Source of the DNA: Acidobacteriota bacterium
Lineage (GTDB): Bacteria; Acidobacteriota; UBA4820; DSQY01
Length of the DNA stretch: 33,680 nt
Direction: 5' to 3'
NCBI GenBank assembly: GCA_040752915.1
Contig: JBFMHB010000027.1
Location: forward strand, 1-33,680
How positions within the stretch are numbered: the first letter of the stretch is position 1; each line of letters opens with the position of its first letter. The position numbers were made by a program, and so were the translations under genes. The notes under the pieces are model-generated. The model made no database searches. It was not told where the DNA came from and saw only the letters and a list, made by a program, of their open reading frames with translations. Below, one piece after another: positions 1 through 33,125 of the stretch.

Positions 1-1074
1 CTCGCCGAACACCTCGAGTGGCAGGTGGGCCTGAGCCGCCTCACGGAGAAGGAGCGGGAGATCGCCCGGACCCTCATCGGCAACCTGAGGGAGGACGGCT
101 ACCTGCTGGTAACCGTGGAGGAGGCGGCCGCCGCCTCGGGGACCTCGCCCGCCGAGGTGGAGGCGGTGCTCGCCGTGGTCCAGGTCATGGACCCCGTCGG
201 GGCCGCCGCGAGGGACCTCCGCGAATGCCTCCTCGTCCAGCTCCGGGCCCTGGGGAGCCCCAACCCGCTGGCCTCCCGCCTGGTGGCCGACCACCTGGAG
301 CGGCTGGGAGTGGACACGCCTGCCCAGATCGCCTCGCGGCTGGGCGTGAAGAAGGAGGAGGTGGAGGAGGCCCTCGCCCTCATCCGGCACCTGGACCCGA
401 AGCCGGGCCTGCGCTTCAACAACCCCGTGAACCCCACGGTGGTTCCCGACGTCATCGTGGAGAAGGACGCCGACGGGTACCGCGTCCTCCTCAACGAGGA
501 CGGTCTGCCCCGCCTGAGGATCAGCCGCCAATACCGCACCATGGCGGAGGAGGGATCTCCCGAAGCCGGGGAGGAAGCCCTCGCCTACCTGCGCGACAAA
601 GTCCGCTCGGCCATGTGGTTCCTCAAGAGCATCGAGGAGCGCCAGCGGACGATCTTCAAGGTCGCCCGGGAAATCGTGGACTTCCAGAGGGACTTCCTCG
701 ACCGGGGGCCCTCCTTCATGCGCCCCCTGGTCCTGCGCGACGTGGCCGAGCGGGTGGGCGTCCACGAGTCCACCGTGAGCCGCGTCGTCTCGAACAAGTA
801 CATGCAGACCCCGCGGGGGATCTTCCCCATGAAGTACTTCTTCAACACGGGCATCAACACCCTGGACGGGGCCGACGTGTCCGCTCTTCGCGTGAAGGAG
901 CGCATCAAGGCCCTGGTCGAAACGGAGCCGCCGGGCAGGCCACACAGCGACCAGCAGATCGCGGACCTCCTTCGCCGGGAGGGGATCCTCCTGGCCCGCC
1001 GGACGGTGGCCAAGTACCGAGAAGAGATGAACATCCCCACCTCCGGGCGGAGGAAGGGGCGCGCCCATTCGTAA
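1..1074 (+). CDS. rpoN: RNA polymerase sigma-54 factor (RpoN), 5' truncated by window edge
   Basis: Sigma-54 directs core RNA polymerase to -24/-12 promoters that need an enhancer-binding ATPase to open. The reading frame is open from base 1 and begins in mid-protein (LAEHLEWQVGLSRL, the usual start of the core-binding region). About 357 residues are present, so roughly 120-140 N-terminal residues (the activator-contacting region I) lie outside the window. A helix-turn-helix is visible at partial residues 245-267 (LRDVAERVGVHESTVSRVVS) and the diagnostic RpoN box ARRTVAKYRE at 332-341, followed by a short basic tail. The GTG at 25 is internal, not the true start. The gene is followed after 15 bases by hpf, the usual rpoN-hpf-PTS arrangement of many Gram-negative bacteria. 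Confidence 0.97.
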   Translation, partial: LAEHLEWQVGLSRLTEKEREIARTLIGNLREDGYLLVTVEEAAAASGTSPAEVEAVLAVVQVMDPVGAAARDLRECLLVQLRALGSPNPLASRLVADHLERLGVDTPAQIASRLGVKKEEVEEALALIRHLDPKPGLRFNNPVNPTVVPDVIVEKDADGYRVLLNEDGLPRLRISRQYRTMAEEGSPEAGEEALAYLRDKVRSAMWFLKSIEERQRTIFKVAREIVDFQRDFLDRGPSFMRPLVLRDVAERVGVHESTVSRVVSNKYMQTPRGIFPMKYFFNTGINTLDGADVSALRVKERIKALVETEPPGRPHSDQQIADLLRREGILLARRTVAKYREEMNIPTSGRRKGRAHS

Positions 1075-21973: not shown

Positions 21974-24133
21974 TCAGCCTTCCTCGATGCGGAAGCGGCT
22001 CATGGAGCGCGACAGGGCCTCGGCCCTCTGGGAGAGGGAGGCGGCCAGGTCGGAGGACTCCTGGACCCTGCGGGCGATGGCCTGGCTTTTCTCGGCCAGG
22101 CTCCCCATGGCCCGCTCCACGGCCCGGCCCGCGTTGCTTTGCACCTGGTTCTGGGCCATGACGTCGGCCACCGCGGAGGTGAGGCGGTCCATGGCCTGCC
22201 GGATGAGAGTGGAACCAGCGCTTTGCTCGGAGGTGGCCCGGCGGACCTCCTGGGAGAGGGACCGGATCCGGTTGACGGCCTCCAGGACCTGCTCCGACCC
22301 GACGGTCTGCTCCTTCGTGGCCTGGCGGAGCTGGTGGGCAAGGTCCCTCAGCCGCTCGGTGGACCGCACGATGCCGGCGGCCCCCCTGGACTGCTCGGAG
22401 GTGGCCCTCGCGATCTCCTGGACCATCTGGAGGGATGGCTTCACCGCCTCCTGGATCCGGGCGAAGACGCCGAGGCCCTCCCGGGCCACCGCCACCGTCT
22501 CGTCCACGATGGCGCGCTGGTCTTCCACGGCTTGGACGGCCTGCTGGACGTCGCGCTGGACCGCATCGATGATGGTCGAGATCTCGCGGGTGGAAACGGA
22601 CGTCTTCTCGGCAAGCCCTTTGATTTCCCCCGCCACCACCGCGAAGGGCTTGCCGTGTTCCCCGGCCTGCGCGGCGATGATGGCCGCGTTGAGGGCCAGC
22701 AGGTGCGTCTGTTCCATGACCTCGTCGATGACGGCCAGGATGTTCCCCACCTCCTGGCTGCGGCGTCCCAGCAGCTTCATGACCTCCGTGGTGGAGGCAA
22801 AGGAGGACCGGAGCTGATCCACGCTGGAGCGAGAGTCCTCCATGGCTTTCGCCCCGGCTTGGGCCTCCGAGGCCACGGCTTCCGTGGCCTTCCGCGTCTT
22901 CGCGGCGTTCTCCTCGATCTGGCGGATCGAGCCCTCCATCTCGGTCATGGCGGCCGAGGTGTCCTCCACGAAACGGTTGAGGGTTTCGGTGGAGGCGTCC
23001 ACCTCCCGGTTGGCCGCCACATTCTGGGTCATGGTGGTGGCCACCGTTCCCACCGCGTCGTTCAGGCCCTGGGTGTTGGCGGCGATCTGGTCGATGCTGG
23101 CCGCCATCTGCAGGACCGAGGAGCTGACCTCCTCCGCCAGTTCCGAAAGACCCTCCATGAGCCGGGAAACCTCCCCCACGGCCCCTTGGATGGCCTTCAC
23201 CTCGGCCCCCGCCTCGCGCGTCGCGCTCTCCTGAGCCTTGGCGTCCTCCAGGGCCAAAGCGAGCTGGCGTGCCTGTACCGAGGCCCCCTCCTCCACCCGC
23301 CGCATCCCGTCCCGGGCTTCCCGGACCATCCCGGCCAGGCTGGCGCCCATTTCGCGGAAGGTGGCCGAGAGCTGTCCCAGCTCGTCGCTCCGGCGGATTT
23401 CCTCCCGAAATCCCGTCAGTTGTCCGCCGGCGATCCTCCGTGCGTCCGCCGAGAGGACCTCCAGGGGCGCCACGATGAAGCGGGCAACGGGAAGGGTGAG
23501 AAGGGTGCCGGCGACGGTTCCGAGGAGCACCACCAGAGCGCCGAAACCGATGAAGCCCCTCCGCAACGCGCCAAGGGATTCGAGGCCCACGACCATCCTC
23601 AGCTCGCCCAGGCGACGCACGCGGTGCTCGCCGGCGGTGGGCTGGGGCGCCTCGAAGCCGATCTCCCCGATCCCCGAGGAGGCGGCTTCCGCCACCAGGA
23701 TCGGAACCCGAAGAAGGAGCCCCGATCCCAACGGCGTATCCACGCGGCTCCACAAGGCCGACCCTGGCGAGCCTTCCGGGCGCGCGTAGGGGGCCTGTTT
23801 CAACGCCCCTCCCGCCTGGACCACGGCGCCCTTCTCGTCGGCGAATTCCACCCAGTACAAGCTGGCGTCCGCCTTCACCAGCTGGTCCACCGTGTCCTTC
23901 AGGCCGCTCTTGTTGAACTGCAAGTTGTAGGCCGACAGCCCCGACACCGTGGCGCCGAGGTTCGAATAGGAGTTCCGCAGCTGGCCCAGGGCCACCCTGC
24001 GGGTGTGGAAGTAATACACGAGAGCCAGGAGGAGGGATCCCACGAACAGGCATCCCACGAGGACGGTGAGGATCTGTCCCCGGACGCTCCCCCGCAGGAA
24101 GGCGAGGGCGCGCCCAAACCAGCCCTTATTCAT
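21974..24133 (-). CDS. Methyl-accepting chemotaxis protein
   Basis: Membrane chemoreceptor of 719 residues. TM1 is at about 21-42, a periplasmic sensor at 43-192, TM2 at 193-216, a HAMP domain at about 217-270 and a long cytoplasmic coiled coil. The signalling tip (472-500) reads EQTHLLALNAAIIAAQAGEH followed by GKPFAVVAGEIKGLAEKTS. It has His for the usual Asn after QT and Ile for the usual Glu in AAIEAA, a variant known to me from deltaproteobacteria-like receptors. The periplasmic domain (about 150 residues) matches no sensor family I can name. The start overlaps the end of the binding-protein gene by 8 bases, suggesting that protein presents the ligand. No CheR-tethering pentapeptide is seen at the C-terminus (FRIEEG). 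Confidence 0.94.
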   Translation of the reverse strand: MNKGWFGRALAFLRGSVRGQILTVLVGCLFVGSLLLALVYYFHTRRVALGQLRNSYSNLGATVSGLSAYNLQFNKSGLKDTVDQLVKADASLYWVEFADEKGAVVQAGGALKQAPYARPEGSPGSALWSRVDTPLGSGLLLRVPILVAEAASSGIGEIGFEAPQPTAGEHRVRRLGELRMVVGLESLGALRRGFIGFGALVVLLGTVAGTLLTLPVARFIVAPLEVLSADARRIAGGQLTGFREEIRRSDELGQLSATFREMGASLAGMVREARDGMRRVEEGASVQARQLALALEDAKAQESATREAGAEVKAIQGAVGEVSRLMEGLSELAEEVSSSVLQMAASIDQIAANTQGLNDAVGTVATTMTQNVAANREVDASTETLNRFVEDTSAAMTEMEGSIRQIEENAAKTRKATEAVASEAQAGAKAMEDSRSSVDQLRSSFASTTEVMKLLGRRSQEVGNILAVIDEVMEQTHLLALNAAIIAAQAGEHGKPFAVVAGEIKGLAEKTSVSTREISTIIDAVQRDVQQAVQAVEDQRAIVDETVAVAREGLGVFARIQEAVKPSLQMVQEIARATSEQSRGAAGIVRSTERLRDLAHQLRQATKEQTVGSEQVLEAVNRIRSLSQEVRRATSEQSAGSTLIRQAMDRLTSAVADVMAQNQVQSNAGRAVERAMGSLAEKSQAIARRVQESSDLAASLSQRAEALSRSMSRFRIEEG

Positions 24134-25049
24134 ACACGACCTCGATGCGCTGGGAGGAGGGTATCTTCAGGCGAAGGGCGTCGGCCGTGTTCTTGTTGGC
24201 GGCGGAAGCGGACACGGCCGGCTGGACGAGCTTGTCCGTGGGGATGTTGACCCCGTTGAGGATGGCCTGCGCCACCCGGGCCGCTTCGTTCCCCACGGCG
24301 TCCGGCGCGAAGAAGGAGGCGCAGAGGGCGCCGCTCGCCACCAGGTTTTCCGACAGGGCCACCGGTACGACGCGGTTCTCGATGCACGTCGAAATGATGT
24401 ACCGCAGGGCGTCGCCGTTGGCCGTAAGGGGGTCCGGAAGGAGAAGAACGAGCCGAGCCTGCTCCTTGACCTCGCCGAGGATGGCCGCGAGGTCCGCGAC
24501 GTTGCCCACGGAACGCCCCTGGGCGTCGAAGCCGTCCGCTCCGAGCCGGCTGATGAGGCCCCCCACGGCGGGTCCCACCGCCGGGCTGTGGAGGATCACG
24601 CAGGACTTCCCTTTGGCGCCGAAGGCCTTCACGAGGTTGGAGAGCCCTTTCGTGGAGCCCAGGGAAGCAATCCCCACCATTTTCGGGTCCTGGAAGAACC
24701 CTTCCACCTCGGGATAGTAGACCATGGCGTAGATGATCCAGACGTCCGGGAGCGCCTCCCGCACCTTCTTGGCGGCATAGGTCCCCACGCAGAAGACGAG
24801 CTGGGGGGACTGGCCCTTCAGGGTCTGAAGAGCCGCGTCGTCGGCCGCCGTGCCCTGCAGGTCGATGGCCTTGGGGTTGAAGGCGGGGAGCTGGAGCGAG
24901 TACGCCACCTGGATGAACCCGGCCTTGGCGTCGGCGTAGGCCTCCACTCCCGAGCGCGAGACGATGAAGACACCGGCGGCCGCCGCCTCCACCGCGACGA
25001 CCAGGAACACCGCCACTGCCAACGCCGTCCATACTTTGCGCTTTCCCAT
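24126..25049 (-). CDS. ABC-type substrate-binding protein of the PF04392 kind, exported
   Basis: 307 residues from ATG 25049, which has GGGGAGGTG about 4 bases upstream. An N-terminal signal or anchor (MGKRKVWTALAVAVFLVVAV, AAAAG) precedes a two-lobed periplasmic-binding fold like the uncharacterised ABC_sub_bind family: AYSLQLPAFNPKAIDLQG, LVFCVGTYAAKKVREALPDV, the MVGIASLGSTKGLSNLVKAF hinge region, and a C-terminal lobe with AARVAQAILNGVNIP and PAVSASAANKNTADALRLKI, the typical ending of this family. There is no permease or ATPase gene beside it. It leads a unit with a chemoreceptor and CheW, so ligand sensing rather than uptake is the likely job. The ligand is unknown. Confidence 0.85.
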   Translation of the reverse strand: MGKRKVWTALAVAVFLVVAVEAAAAGVFIVSRSGVEAYADAKAGFIQVAYSLQLPAFNPKAIDLQGTAADDAALQTLKGQSPQLVFCVGTYAAKKVREALPDVWIIYAMVYYPEVEGFFQDPKMVGIASLGSTKGLSNLVKAFGAKGKSCVILHSPAVGPAVGGLISRLGADGFDAQGRSVGNVADLAAILGEVKEQARLVLLLPDPLTANGDALRYIISTCIENRVVPVALSENLVASGALCASFFAPDAVGNEAARVAQAILNGVNIPTDKLVQPAVSASAANKNTADALRLKIPSSQRIEVVYE

Positions 25050-25080
25050 GCGCACCTCCCCATGAACCTCAAGTTCAGTC

Positions 25081-25109
25081 AGACTATCACCGGCCCTTCG
25101 GCAGGTCAA
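25081..25109 (-). promoter_or_regulatory. Promoter of the binding protein-chemoreceptor-cheW unit, inside the end of the NFACT gene
   Basis: Minus strand: -35 TTGACC (25104-25109, five of six), exactly 17 bases, then TGA-TAGTCT (25081-25089), an extended -10 (TGn plus a three-of-six hexamer). Transcription would begin near 25074, 25 bases before ATG 25049, with the ribosome site GGGGAGGTG in the leader. The -35 lies within the last codons of the NFACT gene, whose stop (25087-25089) overlaps the TG of the extended -10. This is the best-looking sigma-70 site in the window. Confidence 0.62.
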
Positions 25110-28957: not shown

Positions 28958-30268
28958 TCAGGCCCTTCGGAGGGTGAGGATCACCGCAAGACCCTGTCCG
29001 GGGCGGTTGTCCAGGTCCAGTGATCCTCCCAGGCGCCGCGCCAGATCCCGGCACAGGACGAGGCCGAGACCGGTCCCGCCGGGCTTCGTGGAAAGGTAGG
29101 GGGTGAAGGGAGAAGCCGCCACCTCCTCCGGGAGCCCCCCGGCGTCGTCCTCCACCCGGATCCGGGTCCAGCCGCCCTCCTCCTCGACCTTTACGCGGAT
29201 CGTTCCGGAGGCCCCCGAGAAGGCCTCCACGGCGTTTCGGAGCAGGTTGAAGAGGATCTGGTAGAGGGAGGCCTCGTCGGCCTTCACGAGGCGCTCCGGC
29301 GTGCGTGGAACGTGAAACCGGACCCCTCGCGAGGAAGCCAGGGGTTCCAGGGTCGTGACCGCTTCCTGAAGCAGGGCATCGAGGCCGACCTCTCCGACCT
29401 CGGCGAGGAGATCGGATCCGAGGGTCTGGAAGCGGTTCACGAGCTCCATGAGGCGGTCCACCTGGCCCTTCAGGACCGTGGCCGCCTTGGCGGCGGTGGC
29501 GGCAAAATGCGGGTCCGAGGGATCCAGGGCGTCCAGCTCCTGGAGCCACAGCCGCATGGGGGTCAGGGGATTGCGGATCTCGTGGGCCAGGTACCGCGCC
29601 ATCTGCTTGTGCGCGGCCAGCCGCTCGCGGTCCAGGGCGGCCGTAAGGTCCAGCCAGTGGAGGAGGACCCTCTGGCCGGCGGCGTGGCGCTGGAGCTCGT
29701 AGGTTCGACCCTCCCGGCTGACCCTCGCCCCCTCCTCGGCTTCCCCCTCCTCGGTCAGGGCTCGCCCCAGGGTGTTGGCGAAGAGGATTTTTCCGGCCGG
29801 GTCGGTCATGACGAGGCCATCCGGCATGAGTTCGAGGACGCGCCGGAAGAGCTCCGCCGACGTGCGCAGGGTCCGGCGGAGCCGGTATTCCCGCGCCAAT
29901 TGCCTAAGGACAACCAGCAGGTACGAGAGGTCCAGTGGCTTCTCCACGAAGTCCAGGGCCCCCGTTTCCCGGGCGCGTCGCGCCGTTTCCGCCTCCCCGT
30001 AGCCGGTCATGACGATGGCCATGAGGTCCGGCTGGGAGGCCAGAAGGCGCTCGAGGAGCTGGAGCCCGCTCATTCCCGGAAGCCGCAGATCGAGAAGGGC
30101 CAGGTCCGGCGGGCGAGAGGCGACCTCCTTCAGAGCCTCTTCGGGCGAGGCCGACGGGACGACCAGGAAGTCCTCCTGGCGCGCCAGAATCCGCGACAGC
30201 TCCTCGAGGGTGGCCCGTTCGTCGTCCACCACGTACAGGACCAGCCGGTCCCCGTCCGGGGAAGTCAT
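28958..30268 (-). CDS. Receiver-PAS-histidine kinase protein
   Basis: 436-residue cytoplasmic signalling protein with an N-terminal response-regulator receiver: acidic pair Asp15/Asp16 (VVDDE), phospho-acceptor Asp60 (LALLDLRLPGMSG), Thr88 and Lys110 (VEKPLD). A PAS-like domain follows (about 138-210, ELMPDGLVMTDPAGKILFAN). The kinase has His229 (ARYLAHEIRNPLTPMRLW, as in NtrY-like kinases), N-box Asn345 (LFNLLRNAVEAF), Asp376 (VEDDAGGLP) and GGTGLGL at 398-404. It has no transmembrane segment and no DNA-binding output. The ATG (30268) shares a base with the stop of the upstream kinase (TAATG), so the two are translationally coupled. The receiver is a likely target of that kinase. Confidence 0.93.
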   Translation of the reverse strand: MTSPDGDRLVLYVVDDERATLEELSRILARQEDFLVVPSASPEEALKEVASRPPDLALLDLRLPGMSGLQLLERLLASQPDLMAIVMTGYGEAETARRARETGALDFVEKPLDLSYLLVVLRQLAREYRLRRTLRTSAELFRRVLELMPDGLVMTDPAGKILFANTLGRALTEEGEAEEGARVSREGRTYELQRHAAGQRVLLHWLDLTAALDRERLAAHKQMARYLAHEIRNPLTPMRLWLQELDALDPSDPHFAATAAKAATVLKGQVDRLMELVNRFQTLGSDLLAEVGEVGLDALLQEAVTTLEPLASSRGVRFHVPRTPERLVKADEASLYQILFNLLRNAVEAFSGASGTIRVKVEEEGGWTRIRVEDDAGGLPEEVAASPFTPYLSTKPGGTGLGLVLCRDLARRLGGSLDLDNRPGQGLAVILTLRRA

Positions 30269-31932
30269 TACCTGTCTCCTCCTCCCGTGTCCACGGGCCT
30301 CAGCGTCACTCGCACCGAAGTCCCTCCCTGTGCCCGGTCCCCGATCTCCACCCGGCCTCCCATCCTTCTCACGAGAGCTTCCACCACGTACAGGCCCAGG
30401 CCGGTCCCCTGGGCCTTCGTCGTGACGAAGGGTTCGAAGGCCCGGCCTCGCACCTCCTGAGCCAGGCCGGGCCCGTCGTCCTCCACGACCAGCATCGGCT
30501 CTCCCCCGGTGCTCATTTCGAAGCGCGCCCAGATGCGACCGCCGTCGGCCCGCACCGCATCCAGCGCATTGAACAGGAGGTTGACGGTGACCTGGACCAG
30601 GGATTGGGCGTCTCCGAGCACGACGGGTCCGCTTTCCGCGCCCTGGGCCTCCAGGGCCACTCCCTTTCGCTCCGCCGCCGGTTTCACGAGGGAAATCGCG
30701 GCGGCCAGCCATTCCCGCGGCTCCACGGGGCGGTCGGGACCCGGGGCGCCGCGGGTGGCGGAGGCAAAATCCCGAAGGACCCGTTGGGCCGCGCGCAGGT
30801 AACCCCGAAGGACCTCGGCGTCCTCCCGGCTGGGGGGGCGCGCTTCGAGGGAAAGGGCGTCCAGCCTCAATACCGCCGGATTCAGGGCGTTGTTGATCTC
30901 GTGGGAGAGGGCCGCCCCGAGCCTTTCCAGGAGCGCCAGGCGCTGGACCCGCAAGAGCTGCTCCTGCTGGTCGCGGATCCTGAGCGTCATCCGCTCGAAC
31001 ACTTCCGCAAGTTGCGCCGGCTCGTCAAAGTGCCTGGAAGCCTCCCCCTCTCCTTCGGTCCCGGCCCATCCCTCCATTCGCGCCGCCAGGTCGGCCACGG
31101 GGCGGACCACATCCAGGCGGAGGGCCCGGATCAACAGAGACCAGCCCGCCACGAGGAAGCAGACGAAGACCCCCAGCAGGACGATCAGGGCCGCCAGGCT
31201 CCAGCGAAAGGTGGCCGCCGTTTCCGCCGCGAGCGAGGCCAGCCGGCGCTGGTCCATGAGGAGTTCGGCGCGCCCCCATCTCTTGGCATGAACGTAGAGG
31301 GGAAGGGACACCAGGACGCGGTCGCCAGGAAGGTCCACGACGGGCTCCTGTTCCGGCGAAGCGCTCCCCCACGCCCAGCGCTCTCCGGCCTCCACCTCGA
31401 TGATCCCGCCGGCGGAGGAGAGCCGGACCCCCCGCAAGTGTTCGGAGAAGGAAATGCGGGCCGACAGATCCTCCCGGAGCGACCGCTGGGTGGCCTCCAC
31501 TTCTTCCCGGTAGCACTGCGCCCGGGCGGCCTCCACATCGGGGAGGGCCGCGGGAATCCCCGCCTCCGACGCCATCTCCCAGACGCGCGTGTCGGGAAGC
31601 GACGGGTGAGCCCGGACCAAGTCCACGAGATCCGGGTTGGGAGCCGCCCCCTGCGGGACACGCAGCTCGAGCAACCGGGATTCCAGCAGGTGGACCTTGA
31701 GGACGGATGGATCGGCCGCCAGGTCGTACAGAAGGGTCCGCGCCACCGCCAGCCCTTCAGAGCGGGCGTATCGGCCTACCTCCTCGCGGATCTGCTGGAC
31801 CTGGCGCTGCCAGGCCGTGACCACCAGCGCCAGCGTCACGGCCGCCGCGACGGCCACAATGGCCAGCCCTCCGCCGGCCCTCCGTCGCAGGCGAGACTCG
31901 AGGCCGCCGCCTCCCGCCCCCTTAGACCTCAC
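30268..31932 (-). CDS. Membrane sensor histidine kinase
   Basis: 554 residues from GTG 31932, which overlaps the lipoprotein stop (GTGA). TM1 is at about 22-40, an extracytoplasmic domain of about 200 residues (41-243), TM2 at 244-268, a HAMP-like linker (about 270-325) and then the kinase core. Phosphorylated His344 lies in LGAALSHEINNALNPAVL, Asn455 in VNLLFNALDAV, Asp486 in VEDDGPGL and the GTGLGL glycines at 509-514. The sensor domain matches no family I can name. Between a lipoprotein and a receiver-kinase, it probably reads the lipoprotein or its ligand and passes phosphate to the receiver of the next gene. Confidence 0.93.
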   Translation of the reverse strand: MRSKGAGGGGLESRLRRRAGGGLAIVAVAAAVTLALVVTAWQRQVQQIREEVGRYARSEGLAVARTLLYDLAADPSVLKVHLLESRLLELRVPQGAAPNPDLVDLVRAHPSLPDTRVWEMASEAGIPAALPDVEAARAQCYREEVEATQRSLREDLSARISFSEHLRGVRLSSAGGIIEVEAGERWAWGSASPEQEPVVDLPGDRVLVSLPLYVHAKRWGRAELLMDQRRLASLAAETAATFRWSLAALIVLLGVFVCFLVAGWSLLIRALRLDVVRPVADLAARMEGWAGTEGEGEASRHFDEPAQLAEVFERMTLRIRDQQEQLLRVQRLALLERLGAALSHEINNALNPAVLRLDALSLEARPPSREDAEVLRGYLRAAQRVLRDFASATRGAPGPDRPVEPREWLAAAISLVKPAAERKGVALEAQGAESGPVVLGDAQSLVQVTVNLLFNALDAVRADGGRIWARFEMSTGGEPMLVVEDDGPGLAQEVRGRAFEPFVTTKAQGTGLGLYVVEALVRRMGGRVEIGDRAQGGTSVRVTLRPVDTGGGDR

Positions 31933-33047
31933 GGAGCCGCCTCGTGCGCGATTCGGGCCTGCGCCCGGCGAAGCGCCTCCTCCGCGGAGAACTCCGCGTC
32001 CAGCGCATCCATCAGCGCCCCCTCGAGGATCTCCTGGCCGCGCGGCCCGAGGTCCGGAGGCGCCACGAGCCGCGTTCGCGAAAGGGCGCGCTCGGCCTCG
32101 ACATTCTGGGCGGGAAGGCCGGCCGCGGCGGGAAGATGGCCCGCCAGCGCGAGGGTCTCCTGCACGGCGGGCCCCAGGAGCGCCACACCGTCCCGGGGCG
32201 CGACCACGGAGGAAGGACACGCCCACACGTACCCGCCGTACAAGGTCCGGGCGGTTTCCCCGCGGTGGGGCGCTTCGGTCACGCGGCACGAGACTCCGGC
32301 GGACCGAGCCCGGGCGACGAGATCCTTGACCTCCGAAGCCCACACGAAGACCCCTTTCCGGCGTCCCTCCAGGAACGCGTCCACGGCCTCCTGCGGGTCC
32401 GGCGGGGGCTCGAGGCCGTGCCGCTGAAGAAAGGCCAGCGCGCGAATTTGCGGAGCCCCGTACACGGCTTCACCAGGAAGGTCCGAGACGCCCTCCCCGT
32501 GGGCGAGGGCCCAGAAGAGCTCGAGTGGCGGAACGGTGGATCCCAAGGTCGGCTCCCCTTCTCCATGGAAAGCCCGTGCCCCAGCCCAGCGGTCCAGAGC
32601 CTCCAGCGTCATGCGTTCCGGCACCCCGTCCTCTTCTCGCGATGCGAACGCGACCGCGTCCACGGTCAGGGGCAGGGCGAGCCACCGGCCGTTCTGGACC
32701 GGCACGCACGCGCCGAGGCCCTCTCGAAGGGCTCCCGCCGCCACGGGCTCCACGGGCCGCAGCCAGGGCCTGAGCACGGAGAGGGACGAGGCCCGCAGAA
32801 CATAGCCGTCGTAGGCCGTAGACCCGCTTGAAAACAGCAGGACCTCGAGGTCCCGCGCCCGGGCGCTCGGAGTGAGGGGCGCGAAGGTCCATCCGAGGCG
32901 GCCATGCGCCGACGCCGCCTCCAGCGTGCGCGTGAGGCCCGCTGGCGTCGCCACCCGCGGAATCTGCGGCGGCCCGGCCTGGCGCGGCCCGCACGAGGCG
33001 GCCAAGAGGGCGGTCGTGAGGGCCCAGGCCCCTCTTCTCCCGTTCAT
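31929..33047 (-). CDS. Solute-binding-protein-like lipoprotein
   Basis: 372 residues with a likely lipoprotein signal: MNGRRGAWALTTALLAASCG, lipid-modified Cys19 (lipobox AASC, with Ala rather than Leu at -3, so somewhat weak). The mature part resembles family 1 extracellular solute-binding proteins (maltose-binding-like): LPLTVDAVAFASRE (the strand that often holds the ligand side chain), LEALDRWAGARAF, RRKGVFVWASEVKDLVARAR, and a C-terminal PRGQEILEGALMDALDAEFSAE ending with a helix like EEALRRAQARIAHE. Similarity is by eye and partial. No permease or ATPase is nearby, so it is likely a sensor for the kinase it overlaps. Confidence 0.72.
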   Translation of the reverse strand: MNGRRGAWALTTALLAASCGPRQAGPPQIPRVATPAGLTRTLEAASAHGRLGWTFAPLTPSARARDLEVLLFSSGSTAYDGYVLRASSLSVLRPWLRPVEPVAAGALREGLGACVPVQNGRWLALPLTVDAVAFASREEDGVPERMTLEALDRWAGARAFHGEGEPTLGSTVPPLELFWALAHGEGVSDLPGEAVYGAPQIRALAFLQRHGLEPPPDPQEAVDAFLEGRRKGVFVWASEVKDLVARARSAGVSCRVTEAPHRGETARTLYGGYVWACPSSVVAPRDGVALLGPAVQETLALAGHLPAAAGLPAQNVEAERALSRTRLVAPPDLGPRGQEILEGALMDALDAEFSAEEALRRAQARIAHEAAP

Positions 33048-33092: not shown

Positions 33093-33125
33093 AAAAAGAG
33101 CGAGGGCGGGCCGAAGCCCGCCCTC
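33093..33125 (-). terminator. Rho-independent terminator with UUCG tetraloop, after the PKD gene
   Basis: On the minus strand, a perfect 10-base-pair stem (33102-33111 with 33116-33125) encloses the loop TTCG closed by a C-G pair, the extra-stable UUCG type. It is followed after three bases by TTTTT (33093-33097). It lies 25 bases beyond the stop of the PKD/IPT gene and separates it from the lipoprotein-kinase unit. Confidence 0.88.

Follow-up and report, generated by a model that had tools for sequence, protein, structure and literature searches.

We describe a three-gene signalling module of Acidobacteriota, encoded on the minus strand at positions 28958-33047 of a 33,680-nucleotide stretch of contig JBFMHB010000027.1 (assembly GCA_040752915.1; "the window" hereafter means this whole stretch of analysed DNA). 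Its three codirectional genes encode, in order, a lipoprotein resembling solute-binding proteins, a membrane histidine kinase (HK1) and a second histidine kinase preceded by a receiver and a PAS domain. They overlap by 4 and 1 bases, confirming what an earlier note on this DNA had claimed. Judged from sequence comparisons, the module probably forms a two-tier kinase cascade that is gated by a binding protein and acts on an unlinked output.

Conservation as a Unit Within One Order

We searched a sample of 396 genomes of the phylum, 13 of which (from two families) represent the window's order, with a profile of each protein. Strong matches to the lipoprotein, to HK1 with its sensor region and to the receiver-kinase fell in the identical 11 genomes. 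All 11 carriers belong to the window's order and make up 11 of its 13 sampled genomes. The earlier note had proposed looking for conservation of the gene order, and in all 11 carriers the three genes are indeed contiguous and identically ordered. This shared occurrence, together with the unbroken contiguity, indicates that the block is not a product of chance. The 4-base overlap between the lipoprotein and HK1 genes recurs in 10 of the 11 loci (starts chosen by script), the exception being genome G006, where a 331-base gap (L030 1204-1534) holds short AACTCAAAAC-type repeats. The block has outlived much divergence, since identities to the window proteins are low (24-33% for the lipoprotein, 29-46% for HK1 and 34-55% for the receiver-kinase) and the G+C content of the locus stretches runs from 36% to 74%. 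It looks like a conserved module of one order of Acidobacteriota.

These counts leave aside three partial, weak lipoprotein matches outside the order (E 1.3e-5 to 1.7e-4) and two HK1 matches that begin only at about position 235 and so exclude the sensor region. Among the 80 loci listed from a contig scan, a profile check found the lipoprotein in one (L037). Locus L038, on a contig labelled Chloroflexi, was considered as a homologue outside the phylum and rejected. Its positions 1-650 encode a receiver and the final part of an HK1, both of the module's type; beyond them the similarity stops and genes on the other strand begin, which we take to resemble purine-biosynthesis genes. Because the similarity breaks off and is followed by unrelated genes on the opposite strand, we read this contig as probably chimeric and did not count it.

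A Predicted Sugar-Type Binding Protein Beside an Unclassified Sensor

A profile of the 11 lipoproteins, compared with PDB sequences, found a trehalose/maltose-binding protein as its best match (1eu8, E 7.1e-8), along with MalE3 (6dtq, E 5.7e-7) and the sugar ABC binding protein 7c1b (E 5.9e-7, profile positions 105-362 of 371). Among the 44 distinct sequences matched at E ≤ 10, 43 are named as binding proteins or ABC-transporter components; the sole exception is a USP-like protein (E 0.45). The hydrophobic leader and Cys19 were read by eye; the lipobox cysteine is present in all 10 readable members, that of the window included, and the eleventh has a run of Ns at this place. This assignment agrees with Pfam searches of individual members and with a genome scan for SBP_bac_1, in which the lipoproteins from G006 and G011 come up with scores under the curated cut-off. 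By its profile, then, the protein belongs, in diverged form, to the family-1 (sugar-type) solute-binding proteins, as the description of it as binding-protein-like had suggested. Its densest conserved stretch spans approximately residues 58-79, with Pro60, Arg63, Leu67, Glu68, Leu70, Ser76 and Ala78 invariant, and Pro126 and Asp130, which lie in an LPLT-x-D segment alignable with sugar binding proteins, do not vary among the 11 members.

We also assessed whether the window's genome encodes a transporter for such a protein. Eight ABC permease domains were found. One permease pair lies by an SBP_bac_5 protein, another by a PstS-type protein, and a fused permease lies by an ATPase gene; a further pair, at the edge of contig C58, adjoins a KdtA-like gene. 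An SBP_bac_8 scan of this genome gave no match, and an SBP_bac_1 scan gave two proteins, one PstS-type and the other on contig C33. No maltose-type importer was recognised in the permease, SBP_bac_1 and SBP_bac_8 scans. As no importer in the genome evidently awaits the lipoprotein, a role in sensing appears to be favoured.

In all 11 loci the binding-protein gene adjoins a kinase with an extracytoplasmic region, formed by the 195-203 residues between the two hydrophobic helices of HK1 (helices read by eye). This region contains strongly conserved positions, above all around the consensus ARVTFSDHLRG. A profile of it from 10 of the 11 members gave no credible match in Pfam or among PDB sequences (best PDB E 0.029). 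A Cache/PDC domain was considered here and dropped, as these profile searches gave it no support. In NCBIfam, HK1 has matches of a generic kind (AtoS at 109 bits, where the cut-off is 646), and a structure predicted from a two-sequence alignment reached a mean pLDDT of 52. From these profile comparisons, we regard the extracytoplasmic region of HK1 as an unclassified sensor domain of the order.

Two Kinases and an Intervening Receiver

HK1 has an HATPase_c domain (Pfam, 4e-22), and both its H-box residue His344 and the checked ATP-binding residues are invariant in all 11 loci. The third protein matches Response_reg (4e-23), PAS_8 (6.9e-5), HisKA (4.2e-9) and HATPase_c (2.9e-22), and aligns as receiver, PAS and histidine kinase in all 11 loci; in G002 a run of Ns cuts the sequence before the ATPase part. 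Its Asp16, Asp60, Thr88, Lys110 and His229 are invariant throughout, residue 15 is acidic in every member, and the ATP-binding residues Asp374, Gly378, Gly398, Gly400 and Gly402 are invariant in the 10 readable members. A single chain therefore carries a receiver with a full phosphorylation site and, C-terminal to it, a complete kinase core (the ATPase motifs could be read in 10 of the 11 members). The two-tier succession of kinase, receiver and kinase claimed in the earlier note is supported by these observations, the phospho-acceptor residues of both kinases and of the receiver being invariant.

Further support comes from the spacing within the third protein. The distance from the receiver Lys to the PAS Asp is 39 residues in all 11 members, and that from a later PAS Asp (in a DLT motif; Glu in one member) to the phospho-acceptor His is 21 residues, or three times seven, again in all 11. 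The stretch between these two PAS positions is variable, at 55 to 57 residues. Constant spacers are what would be expected if the receiver drives the kinase, since a mechanical switch from receiver to kinase needs fixed helix registers.

Proposed Cascade and Alternative Readings

In the cascade that we consider probable, we infer the ligand, the docking step, the direction of phosphotransfer and the unlinked output. The lipid-anchored, sugar-type binding protein would bind a small ligand, probably a saccharide, in the cell envelope. It would dock on the extracytoplasmic region of HK1 and change autophosphorylation at His344, and the phosphoryl group would then pass to Asp60 in the receiver of the co-encoded receiver-PAS-kinase. 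Acting through a fixed-length helix into the PAS domain and the 21-residue spacer into the kinase core, the phosphorylated receiver would switch autophosphorylation at His229. The second kinase would finally phosphorylate the receiver domain of an unlinked regulator.

Several observations weigh against this reading. Searched alone, the window lipoprotein has no hit at E ≤ 1 in either Pfam or NCBIfam, and SBP_bac_8 is reached by only two of the 11 members (best E 1.1e-5) and SBP_bac_1 likewise by two (best E 3.8e-5). Its fold assignment rests on sequence profiles because the structure predicted from two sequences (the window's and that of L037) has a mean pLDDT of 39 and is unusable. The HisKA match of HK1 (0.029) falls under the Pfam cut-off. 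Two of the 13 genomes of the order are without the module (G008, 64% complete; G010, 90% complete), and the contig ends before any called gene downstream in 5 of the 11 loci and upstream in 3. The genome of the window also holds the C58 permease pair and, on C33, the second SBP_bac_1-type protein.

Three other readings were weighed. The lipoprotein may have lost ligand binding and now serve HK1 as a structural or envelope-state co-sensor, with the downstream flow unchanged. Its low identity across the order and weak Pfam scores fit such a role, and the densest conserved stretch, being one contiguous block, would suit a docking surface; the invariance of Pro126 and Asp130 in the segment aligned with sugar binding proteins speaks against it, and we hold it to be unlikely. 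A different course of the signal would have the two kinases acting in parallel or as a brake, with the receiver serving as phosphate sink or feedback element and with an additional, unlinked regulator for HK1 itself; for the Leptospira Lvr system, a branched pathway was suggested by its authors (PMC5863495). Here the genes for HK1 and the receiver protein stand together in all 11 loci and the spacers joining receiver, PAS domain and kinase core are constant, which makes such an arrangement rather improbable in our view. In a third reading, which we regard as very improbable, the lipoprotein would mainly capture substrate for an ABC importer whose other genes lie at another site, and its adjacency to the kinases would reflect co-regulation only: no permease occurs among the readable neighbours of the 11 loci and no maltose-type importer was recognised in the genome, even though the protein belongs to a transport-associated superfamily and the C58 pair, at a contig edge, may have its own binding-protein gene out of view.

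A broader form of the two-tier cascade would extend to the whole order. In it, a binding protein released from its former part in import would, in response to an external ligand, control HK1 through the unclassified sensor, the receiver of the second kinase would be the main substrate of HK1, and a global output would lie elsewhere. We think this somewhat short of an even prospect.

Output of the Second Kinase

We found no linked regulator with an output domain; the third gene itself encodes a receiver, a PAS domain and a kinase, and the typed neighbours include no regulator. The window's genome has 67 receiver matches and 22 matches to PF00158, of which 17 are strong; since this family has matches in every one of 14 control genomes too, the weak ones carry little information. 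We examined 40 stretches around receiver or PF00158 matches, which take in 14 of the 17 strongly matching PF00158 genes. They contain ten genes that combine a receiver with an AAA domain, five with a neighbouring kinase (detected by our own profile) and five without one (on contigs C8, C16, C37, C49 and C105). Among the displayed neighbours of the latter five, none looked like a complete kinase, and none of the five could be tied to the module kinase.

The H-box of the last kinase had been called NtrY-like. This holds as a class-level likeness and no closer, the best NCBIfam matches, AtoS and ZraS, lying far under their cut-offs. Kinases of such a class may reasonably be expected to feed a sigma-54 output, and that the second kinase acts on a sigma-54 activator is a possibility to which we assign a likelihood of about one third. 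Its target could be one of the receiver-AAA genes without a kinase or, on the precedent of LvrC from Leptospira (discussed below), a different type of regulator.

On contig C49 of the window's genome (G000), locus L198 (13191-15624) encodes an NtrC-type regulator, a kinase-core-like protein and a lone receiver, joined by 4-base overlaps, with no kinase detected nearby. The kinase-core-like protein has an H-box-like motif, apparently without an ATP-binding part. This gene set looks like a relay awaiting an unlinked kinase.

Comparison With Known Systems

We compared the module with characterised systems as they are described in excerpts of the cited papers. In 10 of 11 characterised couples of binding protein and kinase, the two genes adjoin or lie very near each other (PMC11113362), which makes the input half of the module ordinary. 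The nearest parallel to this half is CuaD-CuaS-CuaR of Ruminiclostridium cellulolyticum, in which a lipid-anchored sugar binding protein is encoded beside a kinase with two transmembrane helices and an extracytoplasmic part without predicted domain, and the two proteins have been demonstrated to bind each other (PMC10384115). The systems differ in their third gene: CuaR is an AraC-type regulator of the same locus that induces a transporter operon (PMC10384115), whereas here the third gene encodes a further kinase, and nothing nearby stands out as a regulated gene.

For the receiver-controlled kinase, the closest likeness is LvrA-LvrB-LvrC of Leptospira, with an upstream kinase and a receiver-controlled kinase in one operon (PMC5863495, PMC13269768). 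In LvrB, the most thoroughly studied kinase of this type that we found, the phosphorylated receiver raises kinase activity, and LvrB acts on an anti-sigma-factor regulator; its target LvrC, which is not one of the two operon genes, was picked from 50 regulators by modelling and phosphotransfer profiling (PMC13269768). LvrA, however, is a predicted cytoplasmic hybrid kinase for which the excerpts describe no binding protein (PMC5863495, PMC13269768), while HK1 is a membrane kinase beside a lipoprotein. In the structures of LvrB, which show a mechanical switch of the kind considered above, the receiver helix runs straight into the kinase core (PMC13269768), whereas in our third protein a PAS domain lies in between. 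The inverse Y-T switch of LvrB (S84, T86, Y87, Y103) is absent as well, its counterparts here being Thr, Tyr/Phe, Gly and Phe at alignment positions 89, 91, 92 and 108 (residue number = position - 1), as matched by spacing from the text of the paper (PMC13269768); the feature may be specific to LvrB and not define the class. Given the intervening PAS domain and switch residues of ordinary type, the mechanism of switching should differ in detail from that of LvrB.

The arsenite system AioX-AioS-AioR likewise has a periplasmic binding protein, a kinase and a third signalling gene that are cotranscribed (aioXSR). It differs in that its binding protein is described as of a separate subfamily that senses arsenic oxyanions, and in having a transcription regulator as its third gene. 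AioR is an NtrC-type sigma-54 activator. Another partial parallel is that of the sensor kinase PhcS, which pairs with PhcR; its quorum-sensing input sets it apart from the module, and we know of no binding protein in this pair. PhcR of Ralstonia resembles our third protein in that a receiver is followed by its own kinase (PMC13269768).

The gene order had been described as unusual in the earlier note. This is borne out for the combination and not for its halves, each of which has precedents (CuaD-CuaS-CuaR and AioX-AioS-AioR for one, LvrA-LvrB-LvrC for the other). Searches of open-licence papers brought up no description of an operon of binding protein, kinase and receiver-kinase. Because the combination is absent from these searches while both halves have precedents, what appears to be new is a binding protein on top together with the lack of a linked output; the input half and the receiver-controlled kinase were already known.

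Genomic Context

Features of the module are listed in Table 1. A terminator-like hairpin closes the upstream PKD-repeat gene, so the module probably begins at the lipoprotein, with the caveat that terminator-like sites in the region (2 found, 1.9 expected from shuffles) are weak evidence.

Table 1. Coordinates of the module and its parts in the window (~, approximate).
Feature	Position	Strand	Remarks
Lipoprotein, predicted family-1 (sugar-type) solute-binding-protein kind	31929-33047	-	372 aa; from profile, Pfam and lipobox
Lipobox Cys19 codon	32993-32991	-	Hydrophobic leader ending LLAASC19
HK1, membrane histidine kinase	30268-31932	-	554 aa; GTG start; 4-base overlap with lipoprotein gene
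HK1 transmembrane helices 1 and 2	residues ~22-44 and ~243-270		Read by eye, without a transmembrane predictor
HK1 HisKA and HATPase_c	residues 336-386 and 440-545		His344 in HisKA
HK1 extracytoplasmic sensor region	31208-31812	-	~200 aa; conserved A-R-V/I-T/S-F-S core motif; without family match
Receiver-PAS-histidine kinase	28958-30268	-	436 aa; junction with HK1 TAATG, 1-base overlap
Receiver of receiver-PAS-kinase	~30232-29912	-	Asp60
PAS of receiver-PAS-kinase	~29854-29753	-	
HisKA of receiver-PAS-kinase	~29608-29438	-	His229
HATPase_c of receiver-PAS-kinase	~29278-28967	-	
Terminator-like hairpin	33102-33125	-	10 pairs, then T-run; 3' of upstream PKD-repeat gene

Neighbouring genes could be called downstream in 6 of the 11 loci and upstream in 8, and they vary between carrier genomes. 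In the window, the next gene 3' of the module is a convergent HAD hydrolase gene, and the upstream gene on the same strand encodes PKD repeats (Pfam). An HAD hydrolase and a polyprenyl synthetase lie downstream in four loci (some typed by Pfam, others by similarity); the downstream gene encodes a 340-aa protein without Pfam match in G006, with a 4-base overlap, and a TPR protein in G012. Upstream are secreted proteins of PKD, Ig-like or kumamolisin-like type in G000, G001, G004 and G007, a protein without Pfam match in G002, glutamate-cysteine ligase in G003, NadA in G012 and, with a 4-base overlap, a cyclic-nucleotide-binding/TPR protein in G011. No permease, transporter ATPase or response regulator occurs among the typed neighbours of these readable flanks. 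The claim that neither a permease nor an output regulator adjoins the module is upheld to this extent, and we found no homologous locus with such a gene just outside the conserved block, which the earlier note would have taken as evidence against its proposal.

The upstream secreted repeat proteins were considered as a regulated target of the module and dropped, since they are absent beside those loci of the second family that have a called upstream gene. In G001, two secreted proteins encoded upstream of the module have near-identical leaders. They share with a G002 protein a C-terminal module, LYDMSFKDDYGRS or close to it, that has no Pfam match (L027 13695-16402, minus strand, and L032 3425-4480, plus strand).

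Elsewhere in the window, on the minus strand at 21974-25109, a chemoreceptor gene (HAMP and MCP signalling domains) shares 8 bases with a neighbour whose product resembles ABC_sub_bind (PF04392, E 2.2e-5; 24.3 bits, cut-off 25.9). By these domain matches, the two would be a second binding-protein-plus-receptor pair in the window.

Significance

Receiver-controlled kinases are described as frequent in the excerpted account of LvrB (PMC13269768). The module described here places a candidate input in the same operon as such a kinase, so that screening a single soluble protein for ligands could show what drives a cascade of this type. To our knowledge, the outside signal that starts chains of receiver-controlled kinases is seldom known. 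The matched occurrence of the three genes in 11 diverged genomes also provides a clean data set for docking the binding protein on the unclassified sensor domain.

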